A stretch of 11,073 bases of DNA from Candidatus Jorgensenbacteria bacterium CG23_combo_of_CG06-09_8_20_14_all_54_14. Lineage in GTDB: Bacteria > Patescibacteriota > Minisyncoccia > UBA6257 > GWB1-50-10. The stretch covers positions 599-11,671 of the forward strand of contig PCRZ01000029.1 of assembly GCA_002772205.1 (NCBI GenBank), in the 5' to 3' direction. This document shows positions 2,706-10,208 of the stretch, piece by piece. A model generated the notes under the pieces. The model had not been told where the DNA came from and did not search any database. It saw only the letters and a list, made by a program, of their open reading frames with translations. Every line of letters starts with the position of its first letter. Positions within the stretch are counted from its first letter, which is position 1. The translations under genes were made by a program, and so were the position numbers.

Positions 2706-2744
2706 GGTGCTATAATTAATTATAGCACCTTCTTATTTTTCTGC
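2706..2744 (+). terminator. Perfect 24-bp palindrome plus T-rich tail, copy 1
   Basis: GGTGCTATAATT (2706-2717) is followed at once by its exact reverse complement (2718-2729), then TTCTTATTTTT. On the + strand this has the form of an intrinsic terminator for the VirD4-like gene, though 165 bases downstream of its stop. The same 24 bases recur at 2826-2849. Each arm also contains TGCTATAAT, a consensus extended -10 box, on both strands, so promoter activity is an alternative reading. Confidence 0.55.
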
Positions 2745-2825: not shown

Positions 2826-2857
2826 GGTGCTATAATTAATTATAGCACCCTGCTTTT
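2826..2857 (+). terminator. Perfect 24-bp palindrome plus T-run, copy 2
   Basis: This is identical to the palindrome at 2706-2729 and lies 120 bp downstream of it. It is followed by CTGCTTTTTTATA, a good terminator tail on the + strand. No such T-run follows on the - strand, so it does not look like the efp terminator. The two copies bracket 96 bases that also hold an imperfect inverted repeat (GAAAGAAAC-GGGCG against CGCCC-TTTTCTTTC). Confidence 0.55.
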
Positions 2858-2925: not shown

Positions 2926-3513
2926 CTAAGCTTTTTCTACGCGTTCAACATATTCGCCGGTTGTAGTGTTCACTCGCACCACATCCCCTTCGTTGATAAA
3001 AAGCGGGACATTCGCTTTCGCGCCGGTTTCAAGCGTCACCGATTTGGTGCCGCCCTGCGCCGTATCGCCGCGGATGGCCGGCGGCGCCTCCGTCACTTTT
3101 AAATCCATTTTGACCGGCAGTTCTATATTGATGATTTTTTCACTGTCGCCCGCCGCGAACTTGAATACCTTCACCTCGGTGTTGTTTTTGAGATACTGCC
3201 TCACGTCGCCCACCGCTTCGTCAGCGAGGAAAAAGCGCGCCGCCGGTTTGCCCTTTTCGTGGAACCAATACTGGTCCTTGCTGTGGTAGATGAACACGAC
3301 CGGCACCGCGTTGATATCGGCTTCGTAGAAGCTCTCGTTCTGGTGCGCGGCATAATCTTGTACTTTTCCCGTGATGAGGTTTTTGATCTTGAGTTGCGTG
3401 ACCGGCTTCCGCTGCTGCATGCGGATAAAGGCGTACTCCAGAACCTCGTACGGGTCCGGGTCGTCGTTTTTAGTGAAGATCGTGCCGACCTTCAGTTCGT
3501 TGTAGTTCAACAT
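2926..3513 (-). CDS. efp: Translation elongation factor P
   Basis: This is a 195-aa protein with the three-domain EF-P layout and usual length (bacterial EF-P is about 185-190 aa). An N-terminal KOW-like domain (residues 1-63) contains the KIKNLITGK segment. A middle OB domain covers about 64-130, and a C-terminal OB domain ends in VPLFINEGDVVRVNTTTGEYVERV, very close to the family signature. EF-P enters stalled ribosomes between the P and E sites and helps form Pro-Pro bonds. The tip loop that carries the modified lysine in E. coli (PGKG, Lys34) is replaced here by MQQRKP (residues 32-37). Ungapped alignment puts Gln34 at the Lys34 position, followed by Arg35 and Lys36, so the usual beta-lysylation site is absent or moved. 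The gene diverges from murC and has a good promoter 10 bases before its start codon. Confidence 0.95.
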   Translation of the reverse strand: MLNYNELKVGTIFTKNDDPDPYEVLEYAFIRMQQRKPVTQLKIKNLITGKVQDYAAHQNESFYEADINAVPVVFIYHSKDQYWFHEKGKPAARFFLADEAVGDVRQYLKNNTEVKVFKFAAGDSEKIINIELPVKMDLKVTEAPPAIRGDTAQGGTKSVTLETGAKANVPLFINEGDVVRVNTTTGEYVERVEKA

Positions 3514-4940: not shown

Positions 4941-5426
4941 TTATCCGAGGATTGCAATGCATTCGTCTCGCATCAGCTGTTGTAGAGTAATATGGATGGT
5001 GTCCGGGCATTGGCGGATGAGCTCGCGCGAACTTATGGGACTTGGCCGATAGCGGAAGGCGGACGTGCTGTGCGTTTTCCCGTGCTCTGCAAGATCGTCC
5101 TGGCTGATGCCGTACACCACACGCGCGATGCCCGCCCAGTGCGCGGCGCCAAGGCACATGAGACAAGGTTCGCAGGTCGTGTAGAGGGTGCAGCCGGTGA
5201 GGTACCGCTCCATGCGTTGCCCCACCGCGTACTGGATGACCTCGAGCTCAACATGCTTTGTCGAGTCGTTCTTTGTCCGTACACGGTTTCCGCCCATAGC
5301 CAAAAGTTCGGCACCGTACGCCACCGCAGCGCCGAAGGCGTAGTCGCCGCGTGCCTTTGATTTTTTTGCCTCGTTGATTGCCACCTCCATGAATTTTCGG
5401 TCGAGTTCCTGCATCATACCGTTCAT
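4941..5426 (-). CDS. Zinc-dependent nucleoside/nucleobase deaminase (TadA/guanine deaminase-like)
   Basis: This is a 161-aa member of the cytidine/deoxycytidylate deaminase superfamily. The zinc ligands and catalytic acid are present as H58-V-E60 and P87-C88-L-M-C91, in the context TTCEPCLMCLGAAHWAGIARVVYG. The normal tRNA adenosine deaminase motif is HAE, and HVE is a tolerable variant. The C-terminal half (from about residue 108) does not follow bacterial TadA closely and looks more like the broader nucleoside/guanine deaminase group. The substrate therefore cannot be fixed from sequence: free guanine, a nucleoside, or A34 of tRNA-Arg are all possible. The start is uncertain. A TATAAT box ends only 3 bases before the ATG at 5426, so translation from Met4 (5417) or Met5 (5414) is as likely. 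The gene is alone on the - strand between murC and mnmA. Confidence 0.85.
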   Translation of the reverse strand: MNGMMQELDRKFMEVAINEAKKSKARGDYAFGAAVAYGAELLAMGGNRVRTKNDSTKHVELEVIQYAVGQRMERYLTGCTLYTTCEPCLMCLGAAHWAGIARVVYGISQDDLAEHGKTHSTSAFRYRPSPISSRELIRQCPDTIHITLQQLMRDECIAILG

Positions 5427-5603: not shown

Positions 5604-6971
5604 ATGGTGAAGTTAAGGAAACGTGTGTTTGTTGGCATGAGCGGCGGAGTAGACAGCTCCGTCGCGGCGTTGTTGCTTAAAGAACAGGAATACGACGTGA
5701 CCGGAGTGTACCTGAAATGCTGGAGCCAGGAGCGCCTCGACGAGCTGGGCGTGCTTGGGGAGTGCCACTCGGAGCGGGACGCAGAGGATGCGCGGCGCGT
5801 GGCGGAACATATTGGAATCCCGTTCTATGTGTTTGACTTTGAGGAGGAGTACAAAAAGCGCGTGGTGGAGTATATGGTGGATGGCTACCGCGCGGGTATT
5901 ACGCCCAATCCCGACGTGGTGTGCAATCGCGAGATAAAGTTTGGGTTGTTTTTGGAGAAAGCGCTTACGCTGGGGGCGGATTATGTGGCGACGGGGCATT
6001 ATGTGAGGCTACGAAATACGAAAAACATACGAAAGTACGAAAAAGAGATAAAACCAATTTCGTATATTCGTAAAAAATTCGTATTTCGTAGCTTATGGCA
6101 AGCTAAAGATACAAGCAAAGATCAATCCTATTTTTTATGGACGCTTACACAGGAACAGCTGAAGCATTGCCTTTTTCCCATCGGCGATTATTTGAAATCC
6201 GAGGTGCGCGAAATTGCACGGAAGGCGGGGCTTCCCACTGCGGAAAAAAAGGATTCGCAGGGCATCTGTTTTTTGGGCAATGTGGCGCTCGCGGATTTTC
6301 TGAAGCAGTACCTTCCAGAGCGCGAGGGCGAGGTCATTACTGTGGAAGGAAAGAAAATAGGGGAACACGAGGGCGCGCACTTCTACACGATAGGGCAGCG
6401 CCATTTGGGAATATCAAATCTCAAATATCCCACCTCCGCTAAAGCTTCGGCGGGCAGGCAAAAATCAAAAAGCGACGGAAACCAGAAACCGCATTATGTG
6501 GTGGAGAAAGATATTGCGACAAATACCGTGGTAGTTGCGGAGGGGAGCGACAATCCGGCGCTTTTCCGGAAGGAGGTCATATTAGCCAACGTCAATTTTA
6601 TCAACCCCAATGACTACTTTCTTATTCGCGCGAATAAGAAAGCAGTGACTATGAAAGTTTTGGCACGGGTCAGATATCGTCAGCCACTTTTTGAGGCGAC
6701 GCTAATTTACGCCGATGGGGGGTGGATAAATGCTGATGGGAATCCGCATAAATCAGTTTCAAAATCCTCATCAATCCGTATGGTTTTCAAAGACCCTCAA
6801 AAATTTGTAGCCCCCGGTCAGTCGGCGGTATTCTACTTGCCCGCCGGAGCTTCAGCGAAGGAGGGCTTGCCCTCCGACTTGTCTACTAAAGCTCAAAGAG
6901 TGACGGCGGGAGCTTTGGTAAAGGAGGGTCGTGAAGGGTTTGAGATACTGGGTGGCGGTGTGATCGTGTAG
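5604..6971 (+). CDS. mnmA: tRNA-specific 2-thiouridylase MnmA with in-frame palindromic insertions
   Basis: This 455-aa enzyme catalyses ATP-dependent 2-thiolation of U34 in Lys, Glu and Gln tRNAs. The PP-loop is SGGVDSS (13-19). The first catalytic cysteine is C107 in NPDVVCNREIKFG, followed by GADYVATGHY, the tRNA-binding SKDQSYFLW, and the persulfide cysteine C222 in DSQGICFLG. FYTIGQRHLG, HYVVEKD, VAPGQSAVFY and the final LGGGVI complete the C-terminal beta-barrel, so the protein should be functional. It is about 90-100 residues longer than typical MnmA (about 360). The excess lies in foreign-looking stretches at about residues 135-163, 270-290, 338-347 and 412-442, which match palindromic repeats in the DNA (listed separately). 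A further suspect stretch lies at about 363-382 (INADGNPHKSVSKSSS). All keep the frame and fall between conserved motifs. The ATG at 5604 is preferred over TTG 5586: the first six residues from TTG are not conserved and a TACGCT box sits 6 bases before the ATG. Confidence 0.93.
   Translation: MVKLRKRVFVGMSGGVDSSVAALLLKEQEYDVTGVYLKCWSQERLDELGVLGECHSERDAEDARRVAEHIGIPFYVFDFEEEYKKRVVEYMVDGYRAGITPNPDVVCNREIKFGLFLEKALTLGADYVATGHYVRLRNTKNIRKYEKEIKPISYIRKKFVFRSLWQAKDTSKDQSYFLWTLTQEQLKHCLFPIGDYLKSEVREIARKAGLPTAEKKDSQGICFLGNVALADFLKQYLPEREGEVITVEGKKIGEHEGAHFYTIGQRHLGISNLKYPTSAKASAGRQKSKSDGNQKPHYVVEKDIATNTVVVAEGSDNPALFRKEVILANVNFINPNDYFLIRANKKAVTMKVLARVRYRQPLFEATLIYADGGWINADGNPHKSVSKSSSIRMVFKDPQKFVAPGQSAVFYLPAGASAKEGLPSDLSTKAQRVTAGALVKEGREGFEILGGGVIV
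6008..6092. repeat. AT-rich palindromic insert in mnmA (15-bp perfect arms)
   Basis: GCTACGAAATACGAA (6008-6022) is exactly complementary to 6078-6092. The interior continues the pairing imperfectly, with TACGAAAGTACGAAA near 6029 against TTTCGTATATTCGTA near 6058 (13 of 15). The whole 85 bp could form one long hairpin built from TACGAAA-like units. It encodes residues 135-163 of MnmA, a Lys/Arg/Ile-rich stretch between the conserved GHY and KDQSYFL motifs where other MnmA proteins have a short loop. Its AT content contrasts sharply with the gene around it. Confidence 0.8.
6429..6457 (+). repeat. 29-bp palindromic unit in mnmA, copy 1
   Basis: The unit starts CCCACCTCCG, has the middle CTAAAGCTTC and ends GGCGGGCAG. 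It can be aligned without gaps to units at 6837-6865 (- strand), 7664-7692 (- strand) and 8910-8938 (+). Its product is PTSAKASAGR in MnmA, between the conserved GQRHLG and HYVVEKD motifs. AT-rich sequence on both sides (ATATCAAATCTCAAATATC, CAAAAATCAAAAA) also looks inserted. Confidence 0.7.
6617..6642. repeat. Perfect 26-bp palindrome in mnmA
   Basis: CTTTCTTATTCGC (6617-6629) is followed directly by its exact reverse complement (6630-6642), with no loop. It is in frame and encodes FLIRANKKA in MnmA. Thirteen-base arms with no mismatch inside a coding region are very unlikely by chance in 11 kb. Confidence 0.75.
6837..6928. repeat. Composite palindromic insert near the mnmA 3' end
   Basis: Three parts sit in a row. 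(1) The 29-bp unit on the - strand (6837-6865). (2) A tight hairpin GGAGGGC-TT-GCCCTCC (6860-6875). (3) An inverted repeat TACTAAAGCTC (6884-6894) against GAGCTTTGGTA (6910-6920, one mismatch), ending in a degenerate half-copy of the 29-bp unit (6909-6928). The translation (residues 412-442, Ala/Gly/Lys/Ser-rich) separates VAPGQSAVFY from EGFEILGGGVIV, which are adjacent in ordinary MnmA. Confidence 0.75.
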
Positions 6972-6982
6972 CGGTTTTGTGA

Positions 6983-7022
6983 TGTCCTCAATTTTTATGC
7001 ATATGCATAAAAATTGAGGACA
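6983..7022. repeat. Perfect 40-bp palindrome after mnmA
   Basis: TGTCCTCAATTTTTATGCAT (6983-7002) is followed immediately by its exact reverse complement (7003-7022). With 20-bp arms and no spacer it is the longest perfect palindrome in the window. It starts 12 bases after the mnmA stop. No T-run follows on either strand, so it is an unusual terminator at best. A cruciform-forming element or RNA 3'-end hairpin is equally possible. Confidence 0.8.
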
Positions 7023-7059: not shown

Positions 7060-7308
7060 ATGGGTTCCGAAACCCGCCAGTGCCAGAACTGCCGGTATTA
7101 CCAACGGCTGAAGCAATGCAATTCCTTCAAGCTGTGGAAGCGTAACTGCCAGTGCGCGGGGAAAGGGAGCGAGAACCCGGTCTACCAGAACACCGTGGCC
7201 CACCAGCACGGTACGGGCCGTTGCCCTAACAAGTTCGAGACTAGCTACGCCCCCGAGCGCAAGGAAATCGTCTATTGCGAATCCTGCTATAATGCCGAAG
7301 TGGTCTAG
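7060..7308 (+). CDS. Small Cys-rich zinc-ribbon protein of unknown function
   Basis: This 82-aa protein has eight cysteines (residues 8, 11, 20, 30, 32, 55, 73, 76) and two histidines (48, 50), enough for two metal sites. An N-terminal CQNC and a C-terminal C55-x17-C73-E-S-C76 suggest paired zinc ribbons. The C-terminal block (FETSYAPERKEIVYCESCYNAEVV) resembles, in spacing and in the VYC-x2-C end, the zinc ribbon fused to the VirD4-like ATPase of this window. No signal peptide or membrane segment is seen. A decayed copy of the last 27 codons lies 30 bases downstream, so the gene, or this domain, has been duplicated. The function is not recognised; nucleic-acid or protein binding through the zinc sites would be a guess. 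Confidence 0.75.
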   Translation: MGSETRQCQNCRYYQRLKQCNSFKLWKRNCQCAGKGSENPVYQNTVAHQHGTGRCPNKFETSYAPERKEIVYCESCYNAEVV

Positions 7309-7312
7309 ATGC

Positions 7313-7336
7313 GGTGCTATGACGCGTCATAGCGCT
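7313..7336. repeat. 24-bp palindrome at the duplication junction
   Basis: GCTATGACG (7316-7324) is followed directly by its exact complement (7325-7333). Three further pairs outside, two of them G-U, extend the stem to 7313-7336. It starts with GGTGCTAT, the same 8-mer that begins the palindromes at 2706 and 2826. It sits 5 bases after the intact Cys-rich gene and just before its decayed copy. Confidence 0.65.
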
Positions 7337-7339
7337 ATA

Positions 7340-7542: not shown

Positions 7543-7583
7543 GCGCTATGCTATAGCCATAGCGCTATGACATGTCATAGCGC
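7543..7583. repeat. Two overlapping palindromes of the GCGCTATG family
   Basis: GCGCTATG (7543-7550) pairs with CATAGCGC (7558-7565) around GCTATAGC-type sequence. Overlapping it, GCGCTATGACA (7562-7572) is followed by its perfect complement TGTCATAGCGC (7573-7583). The second has the same GCTATGAC core as the palindrome at 7313-7336, so these are members of one family. The neighbouring 7430-7540 stretch shows no gene. Confidence 0.7.
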
Positions 7584-7645
7584 CCCACTACGATGACCAG
7601 CGGGATGAGAATCTGCCTGGACCGTAAGAACCCGGAGGCGGGACG

Positions 7646-7868: not shown

Positions 7869-8192
7869 ATGTTATCCATCAAACTCAAGCGTGTAGGGAA
7901 AAAGCACCAGGCCTCGTTCCGCATCGTGGTGGCCGAAAAACGTTCCAAGCTCCAGGGCCGCTCCGTGGAGGATTTGGGATGGATGAACCCACGCACCAAG
8001 GAGGAAAAGGTGAACAAGGACCGCGTCAAGTATTGGCTCGGCGTGGGTGCGCAGCCGACTCCCACCGTCTGGAACATCTTGGTCCGCGCGGGCGCCGTGG
8101 AGGGGAAGAAAATTCCCGTGCACAAGAAAGCGAAAACCAAGAAGGGTGAAGCGCCGCCGGCGGCCGTGTCCCCCGCACCCACAGTCGCGTAG
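7869..8192 (+). CDS. rpsP: Ribosomal protein S16 (bS16)
   Basis: This is a 107-aa protein. The S16 fold is clear in the first 80 residues: MLSIKLKRVGKKHQASFRIVVAEKRS, RSVEDLGWMNP, then DRVKYWLGVGAQPTPTVWNILVRAGAV. S16 binds 16S rRNA early in 30S assembly. A Lys-rich then Ala/Pro-rich tail (from about residue 82) makes it longer than the common 80-90 aa, which is not unusual for the family. It opens the classical rpsP-khpA-(rimM)-trmD order, with khpA 84 bases downstream. No clear Shine-Dalgarno sequence precedes the ATG. Confidence 0.96.
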   Translation: MLSIKLKRVGKKHQASFRIVVAEKRSKLQGRSVEDLGWMNPRTKEEKVNKDRVKYWLGVGAQPTPTVWNILVRAGAVEGKKIPVHKKAKTKKGEAPPAAVSPAPTVA

Positions 8193-8629: not shown

Positions 8630-9361
8630 ATGATTACCTTTCATATCATCACGCTTTTCCCAGAGGCGATAGAGGCCTACCTGCGCGCCTCCATTTTGGG
8701 CCGTGCGGAAAAACGTGGGGTTCTAAAGTTCAATTTAGTGAACCTGCGGCCGTTCGGCCTGGGAAGGCACCGCGTCGTGGATAATTCTCCCTACGGCGGC
8801 GGCGCGGGGATGGTAATAAAAATTGAACCCATGTATCGCGCTATCCAATCTATCAAACGAAAACTAAAAGCTTCCGCCAAAGGCGGATCCGCCTCAGGCG
8901 GAAACAGCTCCCGCCTTCGCCCAGCTACGGACGGGCAGTCAAAGCTACTAAAAGCTCGGACTATCCTCTTTTCCACGCGCGGGAAGGTTTTTGATCAAAA
9001 AGCCGCCCGGCGCCTCGCGCGTTATGACCACCTCATTCTCATCGCGGGACGCTATGAGGGGGTGGACGAACGGGTGGCAAGGTATGTCGCGGACGAGGAA
9101 ATTTCCATCGGCGAATTTGTGCTCTCCGGCGGCGAACTTCCCGCGCTCGTGGTTACGGAAGCAGTCGCGCGCCATATTCCTGGGGTGCTTGGGAAACAGG
9201 AATCGCTTGAAGAGTGGAAGGGTTCGTATCCCGTCTACACGAAACCGGAAGCGTTCGTGCCCGATTCGCGGAGGAAGGGGACGGCGTGGCGCGTGCCGAA
9301 GGTTTTGCTCTCCGGCAACCATAAAAACATTGCCGCGTGGCGGCAGAAGATGGGAAAATAG
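8630..9361 (+). CDS. trmD: tRNA (guanine-N1)-methyltransferase TrmD with a 28-codon insertion
   Basis: This is a 243-aa SPOUT methyltransferase that makes m1G37 in tRNAs using SAM. The N-terminus ITLFPEAIEAYLRASILGRA, PYGGGAGM (54-61), the knot motifs AGRYEGVDERV (139-149) and SIGEFVLSGGE (159-169), and the C-terminal EEWKGSYPVYTKPEAF are all intact. The ATG at 8630 is chosen over 8600, because the family starts with M-x-F-x-IxTLFPE and the -10 box lies between the two. Residues 82-109 are an insertion absent from normal TrmD, encoded by 84 bp of palindromic sequence and bounded by the same LKA (ACTAAAAGCT) on both sides. Without it the sequence reads KRKLKARTILFSTRGKVF, a normal TrmD segment. 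The rimM gene usually upstream and rplS usually downstream are absent. Confidence 0.95.
   Translation: MITFHIITLFPEAIEAYLRASILGRAEKRGVLKFNLVNLRPFGLGRHRVVDNSPYGGGAGMVIKIEPMYRAIQSIKRKLKASAKGGSASGGNSSRLRPATDGQSKLLKARTILFSTRGKVFDQKAARRLARYDHLILIAGRYEGVDERVARYVADEEISIGEFVLSGGELPALVVTEAVARHIPGVLGKQESLEEWKGSYPVYTKPEAFVPDSRRKGTAWRVPKVLLSGNHKNIAAWRQKMGK
8873..8956. repeat. 84-bp in-frame palindromic insertion in trmD, flanked by a 10-bp direct repeat
   Basis: The insert begins with a double hairpin, TTCCGCC-AAA-GGCGG and CCGCC-TCA-GGCGGAA, a near-perfect palindrome centred on GGATCC (8872-8903). The 29-bp unit (8910-8938) follows. ACTAAAAGCT occurs at 8863-8872 and again at 8947-8956, the last ten bases of the insert. 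The unit from 8873 to 8956 is 84 bp, exactly 28 codons, and its removal leaves one copy of the direct repeat and an uninterrupted canonical reading frame. The direct repeat is what a target-site duplication, or a recombination footprint, would leave. Confidence 0.8.
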
Positions 9362-9449: not shown

Positions 9450-10208
9450 ATGGAAACAGGTTCCACGGTAAACAACGAGACGGTACTCGAGATGGCCAAC
9501 CTCGGGGTGCTCTTCGGGCACAAGAAATCCAAGACGCACCCGCGCATGCGGCCTTTCATCGCGGGGACGAAAAATGAGATAGAGCTCATTGACCCGGAGG
9601 CGACCCTTGTCACTTTGGAGGCGGCCGCGAAGGCCGTGGAGGAAGTGGTGGAGCGCGGCGAATCCGTGCTCCTCGTGGGCACCTTGGCGCCGGCGCGGGA
9701 GGCAGTGGCGCTTTTCGCCCGCACATTCCAGTTTCCCTACGTGACCAATCGCTGGCTTGGCGGGACGCTCACTAATTTTAAGGTGATAAGCGATCGCATG
9801 AGGTATTACCAAGAACTCAAAGAAAAGCGCGCGGCGGGGGAATTCGCCAAGTACACCAAAAAGGAACAGTCGAAGCTCTCAAAGACCATCGGAAAACTTG
9901 CCAAGAACTTTGAGGGGCTCGCGGGGTTCACCAAGCTCCCCGCCATACTCCTCGTAGTGGACCCCAAGGCGCACGCGACCGCGGTTGCCGAGGCGCACCA
10001 CACCGGTATTCCCGTGGTGGCGATACTTGACACCGACGACGATCCGCAGGGTATCACGTATCCCATCTATGCGAGCGATCGGGCGAAGTCGAGTATTGAG
10101 TGGGTGATGAAGGTACTCACCGAGCGCGCCGCGGCAAAGCAAGCTCGCCTCGCTGAAGCTCCGGCGGAGCGGGCGGTGCGGCCGCCGGTGGGTGAAACTG
10201 CCGTATGA
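9450..10208 (+). CDS. rpsB: Ribosomal protein S2 (uS2)
   Basis: This is a 252-aa protein with the full set of S2 motifs: LGVLFGHKKSKTHPRMRPFI near the start, VTNRWLGGTLTNFKVI in the middle, VVDPKAHATAVAEAHHTGIPVVAILDTDDDP, then ITYPIYASDRAKSSIEWV. S2 binds late in 30S assembly near S1. In place of the usual DTN the motif is DTD. The last 20 or so residues (RLAEAPAERAVRPP...) lie beyond the conserved fold. Part of that tail (10150-10167) is identical over 18 bp to the palindromic unit in mnmA. The ATG at 9450 is chosen because the one at 9445 is out of frame. There is no clear Shine-Dalgarno sequence. The stop overlaps the tsf start (ATGA), indicating coupled translation. Confidence 0.96.
   Translation: METGSTVNNETVLEMANLGVLFGHKKSKTHPRMRPFIAGTKNEIELIDPEATLVTLEAAAKAVEEVVERGESVLLVGTLAPAREAVALFARTFQFPYVTNRWLGGTLTNFKVISDRMRYYQELKEKRAAGEFAKYTKKEQSKLSKTIGKLAKNFEGLAGFTKLPAILLVVDPKAHATAVAEAHHTGIPVVAILDTDDDPQGITYPIYASDRAKSSIEWVMKVLTERAAAKQARLAEAPAERAVRPPVGETAV
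10150..10167 (+). repeat. Fragment of the 29-bp palindromic unit in the rpsB tail
   Basis: TCGCTGAAGCTCCGGCGG is the exact reverse complement of 6841-6858 in mnmA. It encodes LAEAPA in the nonconserved C-terminus of S2. An 18-base identity between two unrelated genes is hard to explain by chance and suggests the tail grew from the same repeat family. Confidence 0.6.

Follow-up and report, generated by a model that had tools for sequence, protein, structure and literature searches.

Introduction

To our knowledge, palindromes in protein-coding DNA are known mainly from Rickettsia, and a mobilising partner has not been established for them. ArsR-family repressors have palindromic operators. In what follows, a metal-sensing cysteine motif is taken to be a feature of ArsR family regulators, and palindromes of the REP/RAYT system are taken to bear an unpaired tag, GTAG or CGTC, at one end. 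Insertion of Rickettsia palindromic elements (RPEs) into protein-coding genes has been described (Ogata et al. 2000, as cited in an excerpt of PMC6649704), and the same excerpt describes the coding palindromes of nematomorphs as distinct from these Rickettsia selfish elements. Among the literature matches listed, whose scope left subscription journals and preprints outside, no title or opening of an abstract described such palindromes in Patescibacteria/CPR.

Here, the mnmA gene was analysed in a stretch of 11,073 nucleotides (the window) lying on contig C30, in a genome of 508,565 bases in 47 contigs, 94.6% complete. Palindromes are dispersed, recur in one loop of MnmA and are tied to HTH genes both by position and by genome. 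With a probability of roughly 0.6, the element in this loop (loop 3) is the palindrome of an ArsR-fold protein, and MnmA has gathered copies of dispersed repeats in its exposed loops, mostly as passengers.

An over-long MnmA with inserts in predicted loops

The gene mnmA (5604..6971, forward strand) encodes a tRNA 2-thiouridine synthase with several loop inserts, in a single open frame of 455 codons. The 455-aa protein scored above the cut-off of NF001138/TIGR00420 (E 5e-116 for NF001138, model length 345). The named entries among its best matches listed came from uncultured Patescibacteria/Parcubacteria, including Jorgensenbacteria, Liptonbacteria, Colwellbacteria and others. A first alignment under a strict motif comprised 60 sequences, the window included, of 344-458 aa with a median of 374.5; the window protein was the second longest, in agreement with an earlier reading of the letters alone (the sequence-only reading), which had called this MnmA longer than the family norm. 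The same reading had held that the inserts keep the frame and leave the PP-loop and both catalytic cysteines in place. Indeed, the PP-loop SGGVDSS together with C107 and C222, which we take to be the catalytic cysteines, was invariant in the 52 alignment rows used for structure comparison.

An AlphaFold model of the protein reached a mean pLDDT of 85.5 and a pTM of 0.86, and the best Foldseek matches were 2hma, 2det, 2deu and 2der, with TM 0.88-0.90 by target length. Alignment and model together show that the MnmA fold, the PP-loop and the two conserved cysteines are retained despite the inserts. Structure prediction had been proposed as a check on loop placement. In the model, residues 280-286 (insert 2), 373-387 (insert 4) and 429-440 (insert 5), all with pLDDT <50, coincided with inserts, and blocks 141-150 (mean 53) and 151-160 (mean 60) coincided with insert 1. 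Around insert 3, the blocks averaged 84 and 71. The added length is confined to loops, and the core they surround is intact.

Inserts in the window MnmA

Palindromy was assessed as the inverted-repeat score against 300 codon shuffles of mnmA, and dispersed relatives were counted by blastn on 236,634 bp of the own genome (the own-genome sample) against one shuffled copy, with the piece itself included among its matches. Four of the five insert pieces tested had dispersed relatives, against 0-2 matches in the shuffle.

Insert 1 (6008..6092, forward strand) is an AT-rich inverted repeat of the TACGAAA type with arms at 6008-6042 and 6058-6092, located in the loop preceding KDQSYF. Its score of 21 (shuffle mean 8.8) was reached by 0/300 shuffles, it gave 35 matches against 2 in the shuffle, and an element of its type is also present in an orthologue from genome G011 (L016). 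Insert 2 (6429..6457, forward strand) is one copy of a dispersed, GC-rich repeat (CCTCCGCTAAAGCTTCGGCGGGCAGG) and gave 11 matches against 1; its palindromy was not significant, 160/300 codon shuffles reaching its score. Insert 3 (6613..6646, forward strand) is a loopless 34-bp palindrome with one mismatched pair, centred on ATTCGCGCGAAT and encoding DYFLIRANKKAV, and its score of 15 (shuffle mean 6.6) was reached by 0/300 shuffles. The 26-bp loopless palindrome previously noted at 6617-6642 is therefore real, but its extent had been set too narrow. Insert 3 was identical over 27/27 nt to the palindrome upstream of an ArsR-like gene on contig C27 of the own genome, and it agreed at 33/34 nt with a palindrome that flanks such a gene in G005, which belongs to another genus.

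Insert 4 (6717..6764, forward strand) is an extra loop (GGWINADGNPHKSVSK) of low alignment occupancy that is not palindromic; KSVSxSASIRV-type stretches resembling it were seen in L035, L016, L017 and L021. The stretch INADGNPHKSVSKSSS, reported before as a further nonconserved segment, proved in the alignments to be an extra low-occupancy loop, but not a palindrome (114/300 codon shuffles reached its score). Insert 5 (6837..6929, forward strand) lies near the C-terminus. A GC-rich repeat of the dispersed kind makes up its first half (9 matches against 0 in the shuffle), whereas its second half (about 6901-6931), alike by eye, gave 5 matches against 5. Palindromy of 6837-6928 was not significant (20/300 shuffles). 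Among the 33 orthologues shown, a long insert at this position occurred only in L020, and short ones in four. Directly after mnmA lies a perfect palindrome of 40 bp (CCTCAATTT...CATATG...AAATTGAGG; 6983..7022, without strand), which belongs to a different family with six sites in the own-genome sample.

Of the four palindromic inserts first put forward, those at 6008-6092 and 6613-6646 were thus upheld, while 6429-6457 and 6837-6928 did not exceed their shuffles. The assignment of the inserts to different families was correct. For the two GC-rich ones, likeness to dispersed repeats was confirmed for 6429-6457 and for the first half of 6837-6928, the second half failing at 5 versus 5.

GC-rich repeat-like stretches were also observed elsewhere in the window, namely in trmD (8866-8950; 42 matches including itself versus 2 in the shuffle, own-genome sample), in rpsB (10146-10170; 25 including itself versus 1), in a VirD4-like ATPase gene (1953-1980; 14 including itself versus 2) and in a tsaC-like gene (150-195), the sole match of which in the own-genome sample was itself. 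Two palindromes of the GCTATGACryGTCATAGC type (7310-7338 and 7559-7587) bracket one stretch of the window that opens, by eye, with a truncated second C-terminus of the CxxC protein gene at 7060-7308.

Recurrent elements in loop 3 of MnmA orthologues

The collection started from 110 MnmA loci. Removal of the own copy (L015), seven duplicates (L065, L067, L069, L074, L087, L092 and L101) and three partial loci (L119, L120 and L141) left 99, which were joined with the window to a set of 100. Palindromes were searched as inverted repeats with a score of at least 12 and a loop of at most 20. As a result, 27 were identified in 22 of the 100 genes, whereas 20 codon shuffles gave 0.95 on average and 3 at most. 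Of the 27, twelve, in 11 genes, share the loop of insert 3 (window residues 341-345), and they belong to at least four palindrome families.

After four sequences had been added, 23 of 104 MnmA carried a palindromic or direct-repeat element in loop 3: 11 of type A (ATTCGnnCGAAT), 6 of type B (ATTCTnnAGAAT), 3 direct repeats and 3 others. Eleven rows of this tree set were left unlabelled by pattern; L114 was set to 'other palindrome' and ten to 'none'. On the MnmA tree, which holds one genome per species and has many weak branches (44/101 open), the 23 carriers required 21 changes, and type A required 11 changes for its 11 carriers. Under an earlier labelling (22 carriers, L214 set to none), 20 changes were needed compared with 19-22 in 200 shuffles, so that the loop-3 carriers show no phylogenetic signal. 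Near neighbours also carried different families (L042 and L066; L080 beside L017 and L022; L019 beside the window and L018). Together, the missing signal and these differing neighbours indicate that loop 3 is a recurrent acceptor.

A single ancestral insertion into this loop of MnmA, passed on by descent and subsequently lost or changed in the majority of lineages, would fit the likeness of several type A peptides (SLIRANRRI). It is nevertheless very improbable given the change counts, even on a tree with so many open branches, and given the families that differ between near neighbours.

The length of loop 3 was counted against the favoured reading: its median was 21 residues with type A and 16 without, a gain smaller than the palindrome. 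In a same-genus pair, the loop of G124 lacked the element seen in G132; the net difference was 4 aa, and the boundaries were not clean. No empty site with exact boundaries or a target duplication was found.

Two further loci contained repeated elements in coding DNA. In L241 (contig C30 of G132), a 481-aa ORF, NifS-like by eye, carries three translated copies of a VRNVQNVLTDKNKRANASDR... repeat resembling the first MnmA insert of G132. In the MnmA gene of L114, a GTGGATAAACGACTT palindrome occurs twice, at 2113-2155 and 2934-2972, in two loops.

Distribution of the loop-3 palindrome among genomes and coding hosts

The core of the loop-3 palindrome family is ATTCG-nn-CGAAT. Of 150 genomes of the order, 39 contained its exact 12-mer ATTCGCGCGAAT, with 146 copies in total and no more than 14 in any one genome (summed by hand). 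The reversed 12-mer, also a palindrome, occurred 14 times in 13/150 genomes, so lone copies of ATTCGCGCGAAT can be due to chance. For the elements as a whole, an origin in chance, codon usage or assembly artefacts is barely credible. Two of the four palindromes originally reported in mnmA do lie within chance, but inserts 1 and 3 fail this explanation in the codon shuffles (0/300), the same core is spread over many genera (39/125), and the reversed-pattern controls gave 14 versus 146 here and 0 versus 36 for the Trp-type palindrome described below.

For 38 copies gathered by their centre alone, complementarity of the arms was compared with the column expectation at the 11 distances 7-17; it was higher at ten of them and equal at distance 12. 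The paired positions were made up of several pair types, indicating that the arms vary yet stay paired.

Solo copies were found between genes and also in frame inside genes. When 75 copies were listed by place, 4 of the 74 other than the window's own lay in mnmA (binomial p about 1e-5, taking 1.3 kb per 700 kb, for copies that are not independent of shared history). With 12 of 27 palindromes in one loop and carriers unclustered on the tree, this enrichment supports the proposal of the sequence-only reading that the gene is a tolerant hot spot. In-frame hosts comprised MnmA orthologues, a glycosyltransferase of the own genome, UvrC, YchF, an IPP transferase (MiaA-like), a formyltransferase, PGK, TatD, TruB, a class V aminotransferase and an O-antigen ligase; hosts were assigned by Pfam, except that, apart from the window and L179, those that are MnmA were recognised by similarity. 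As an impression, tRNA-related enzymes (MnmA, MiaA-like, TruB, formyltransferase, class V aminotransferase) seemed over-represented among the coding hosts of the ATTCGCGCGAAT palindrome.

Reading frames were compared at 28 sites in open frames of at least 200 codons, and the 20 with an identified host (10 of them MnmA) were counted. Fifteen were read as ATT-CGC-GCG-AAT (IRAN), five in the SRE frame and none in the third. The eight sites left out, unidentified or core-only (L060 at 13523, L110, L183 twice, L185, L190, L211 and L225), were read twice in the first, twice in the second and four times in the third frame. The suggestion that the elements have been selected to be harmless when translated is thus favoured by the identified hosts but opposed by half of the left-out sites; since removal of bad insertions explains the frame bias equally well, selection on the element itself is only partly supported.

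ArsR-like genes enclosed by palindrome copies

Copies of ATTCGCGCGAAT were often paired. Eight pairs were examined, with members 314-383 bp apart, and seven of them enclosed an ORF of 86-104 aa. All seven enclosed proteins matched Pfam HTH_5 (PF01022, ArsR family) above the curated cut-off, and the ORF within the eighth pair (L172) matched a model built from these seven ArsR-like proteins. Not a single cysteine was present in the seven, which thus do not have the metal-sensing cysteine motif. The fetched loci, which had partly been chosen by palindrome, contained 19 distinct ArsR-like genes. Within 400 bp, 16 of these were flanked by palindromes upstream and downstream, and the other 3 on a single side. 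By raw count, 16 of 18 upstream palindromes were followed at 19-44 bp by a -10-like hexamer.

Because these first loci were partly palindrome-selected, 20 more ArsR-like genes were picked by protein search alone from strong matches not yet included, two of which were left out. The core ATTCGnnCGAAT occurred within 150 bp in 15 of the 20 genes, on both sides in 13, while two control patterns of the same size were found in 0/20. The other five had no core even within 400 bp. The exact 12-mer of the MnmA copy was present in only 2 of the 20, with centre and arms varying between genes; the cognate link is therefore to a family of cores.

At the level of genomes, the 12-mer was found in 23 of 27 with a strong ArsR-like match and in 16 of 123 others (Fisher p 5e-13), as tallied by hand with strong meaning E 1e-22, a threshold set at a gap seen in the list. 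At the search cut-off of 1e-8, the figures were 32/73 versus 7/77. The own genome has three such ArsR-like genes. One genome (G118) carried 8 palindrome copies and no ArsR-like match at E 1e-8.

A link by gene neighbourhood was rejected, since no more than 3 of 102 loci had an ArsR-like gene close to mnmA. In one of the three (L132), the palindrome in mnmA differs in type from that beside the neighbouring winged-helix gene. In L111, two CATTCTnnAGAATG palindromes (1071-1106 and 1577-1614) enclose a winged-helix gene that precedes mnmA, and a like palindrome (3034-3067) is in frame in mnmA, in a loop different from loop 3.

These neighbours bear on the idea of an intragenic operator, by which the palindrome in mnmA is selected, a bound ArsR-like protein blocks transcription of mnmA, and separate lineages have re-evolved the arrangement with different paralogues in the single tolerant loop. 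It would account for the 4/74 copies in mnmA, for the 17/104 orthologues with one of the two ArsR-related types in loop 3, for the three loci with an ArsR-like gene close by and for L111, where neighbour and mnmA share the CATTCTnnAGAATG type, though in another loop. Against it, 81/104 sequences are without a loop-3 element, the three neighbours are near what the density of ArsR genes predicts (about 1 by rough estimate), and in-frame copies also occur in the unrelated UvrC, PGK, YchF and TatD. Loop-3 copies as passengers are preferred because most MnmA lack the element and unrelated genes carry it; the enrichment in mnmA keeps the operator alive as an unlikely alternative.

Other palindrome families and adjacent HTH genes

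In the own-genome sample, 106 inverted repeats with a score of at least 12 and a loop of at most 60 were detected, compared with none in one first-order shuffle. Fifteen lay inside genes, 8 at an edge and 83 between genes, according to a home-made gene caller that covered 76% of bases. By the same caller, the neighbourhoods of palindromes in the own-genome sample were mixed (5' ends, 3' ends, convergent) with no single pattern, which is unlike a plain regulon and was counted against the favoured reading.

Two palindromes of a Trp-repressor type lie in the window, GGTGCTATAATTAATTATAGCACC at 2706..2729 and a second at 2826..2849 (both without strand). They belong to 35 sites of the pattern GTGCTNNNNTTAANNNNAGCAC in the own genome, whereas 38 relatives combined had 1; the reversed-pattern control gave 0 versus 36. 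Although four arm positions are free in the pattern, 34 of the 35 sites were fully complementary, in four arm versions (by hand). In 19 own-sample copies, hardly any information was left further than about 14 bp from the centre when both orientations were pooled, a procedure that would weaken a one-sided tag. The palindrome therefore looks like the whole element.

A Trp_repressor gene (L045, contig C1) is bracketed by GGTGCTACAGTTAACTGTAGCACC palindromes, the first at the start of the gene and the second about 170 bp past its end. Similarly, a PaaX_M gene (L064, contig C33) lies between two palindromes of the TTATCACATG...CATGTGATAA type, and a second PaaX_M gene (L061, contig C28) starts at a palindrome of a third type. 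In the gene listing, no HTH gene was recognised alongside most other palindromes of the own-genome sample. L061 also contains two near-identical 110-bp blocks (5206-5315 and 7975-8086); both blocks hold two palindromes centred on CCATGG, the type at which a PaaX-like gene starts.

Alternatively, the elements could be conventional mobile palindromes, akin to Rickettsia palindromic elements or REPs, that a transposase moves in trans, with HTH genes as passengers; this would have precedents. RPEs enter coding genes without loss of activity (excerpt of PMC6649704), and REP-flanked transposase genes are known (excerpt of PMC3733652). For the present elements this explanation is quite improbable. 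The Y1_Tnp profile (PF01797) matched nothing in the own genome, 94.6% complete, although 16 of 39 genomes have a match, and a transposase link through this family was ruled out for the own genome. Moreover, no conserved end tag was apparent in the pooled orientations of the Trp-type palindrome, its conservation ending about 14 bp from the centre, and three classes of HTH protein, each next to a palindrome of its own, can hardly be called passengers.

A further possibility is a selfish unit made of a minimal repressor-operator pair, in which a small HTH gene bounded by two copies of its own palindrome lets that palindrome multiply across the genome, coding DNA included, with no encoded transposase. 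ArsR-, Trp-repressor- and PaaX-like genes would have arrived at this independently, with the mnmA loop as a shared landing place. We regard this as tentative and somewhat unlikely.

Discussion

Under the favoured reading, several short dispersed repeats would accumulate in exposed loops of MnmA. One of them would be the palindrome that an ArsR-fold (winged-helix) protein binds as operator, repressing its own gene, and this palindrome may spread as a non-autonomous element of 24-44 bp. Most intragenic insertions would be purged, the survivors being stop-free frames in loops, and the loop palindromes in MnmA would essentially be passengers. Binding, autoregulation and movement of the palindromes are what we infer from these patterns. 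DNA resembling a protein-binding site thus seems to have spread into the core enzyme MnmA.

The candidate partner, a DNA-binding protein, is encoded between two copies of the palindrome, which offers a testable link from a dispersed coding repeat to a protein. If the reading is true, translation of binding sites has made proteins of streamlined bacteria longer, with consequences for annotation, for the prediction of structures and for our view of how proteins evolve.

The layout shared with RPEs, which alone was compared, is palindromic DNA translated in frame and tolerated in ordinary enzymes (excerpt of PMC6649704). Unlike RPEs, the present elements, from a different phylum, are short loopless palindromes with a fixed core and variable complementary arms, and their copies bracket genes of DNA-binding proteins. 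Nematomorph mitochondria likewise contain inverted repeats inside protein genes, which there are perfect and have been gained and lost between species; these reach 284 bp, and the excerpt of PMC6649704 describes no linked DNA-binding protein, in contrast to the elements of the window. ArsR repressors share the HTH_5 winged helix and the palindrome upstream of their own gene, followed by a -10-like box, whereas the seven proteins examined here had no cysteines, a second palindrome lies downstream, and copies occur within coding genes. As in the REP/RAYT system (excerpt of PMC3733652), short palindromes of 20-40 bp exist in many copies, a gene is flanked by copies, and some are intragenic; however, the flanked gene is here ArsR-, Trp-repressor- or PaaX-like instead of a tyrosine transposase, and Y1_Tnp was not found in the own genome. 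The nearest known kinds are RPEs and REPs with their RAYTs, from which the present elements differ in having an HTH gene where a transposase would be.
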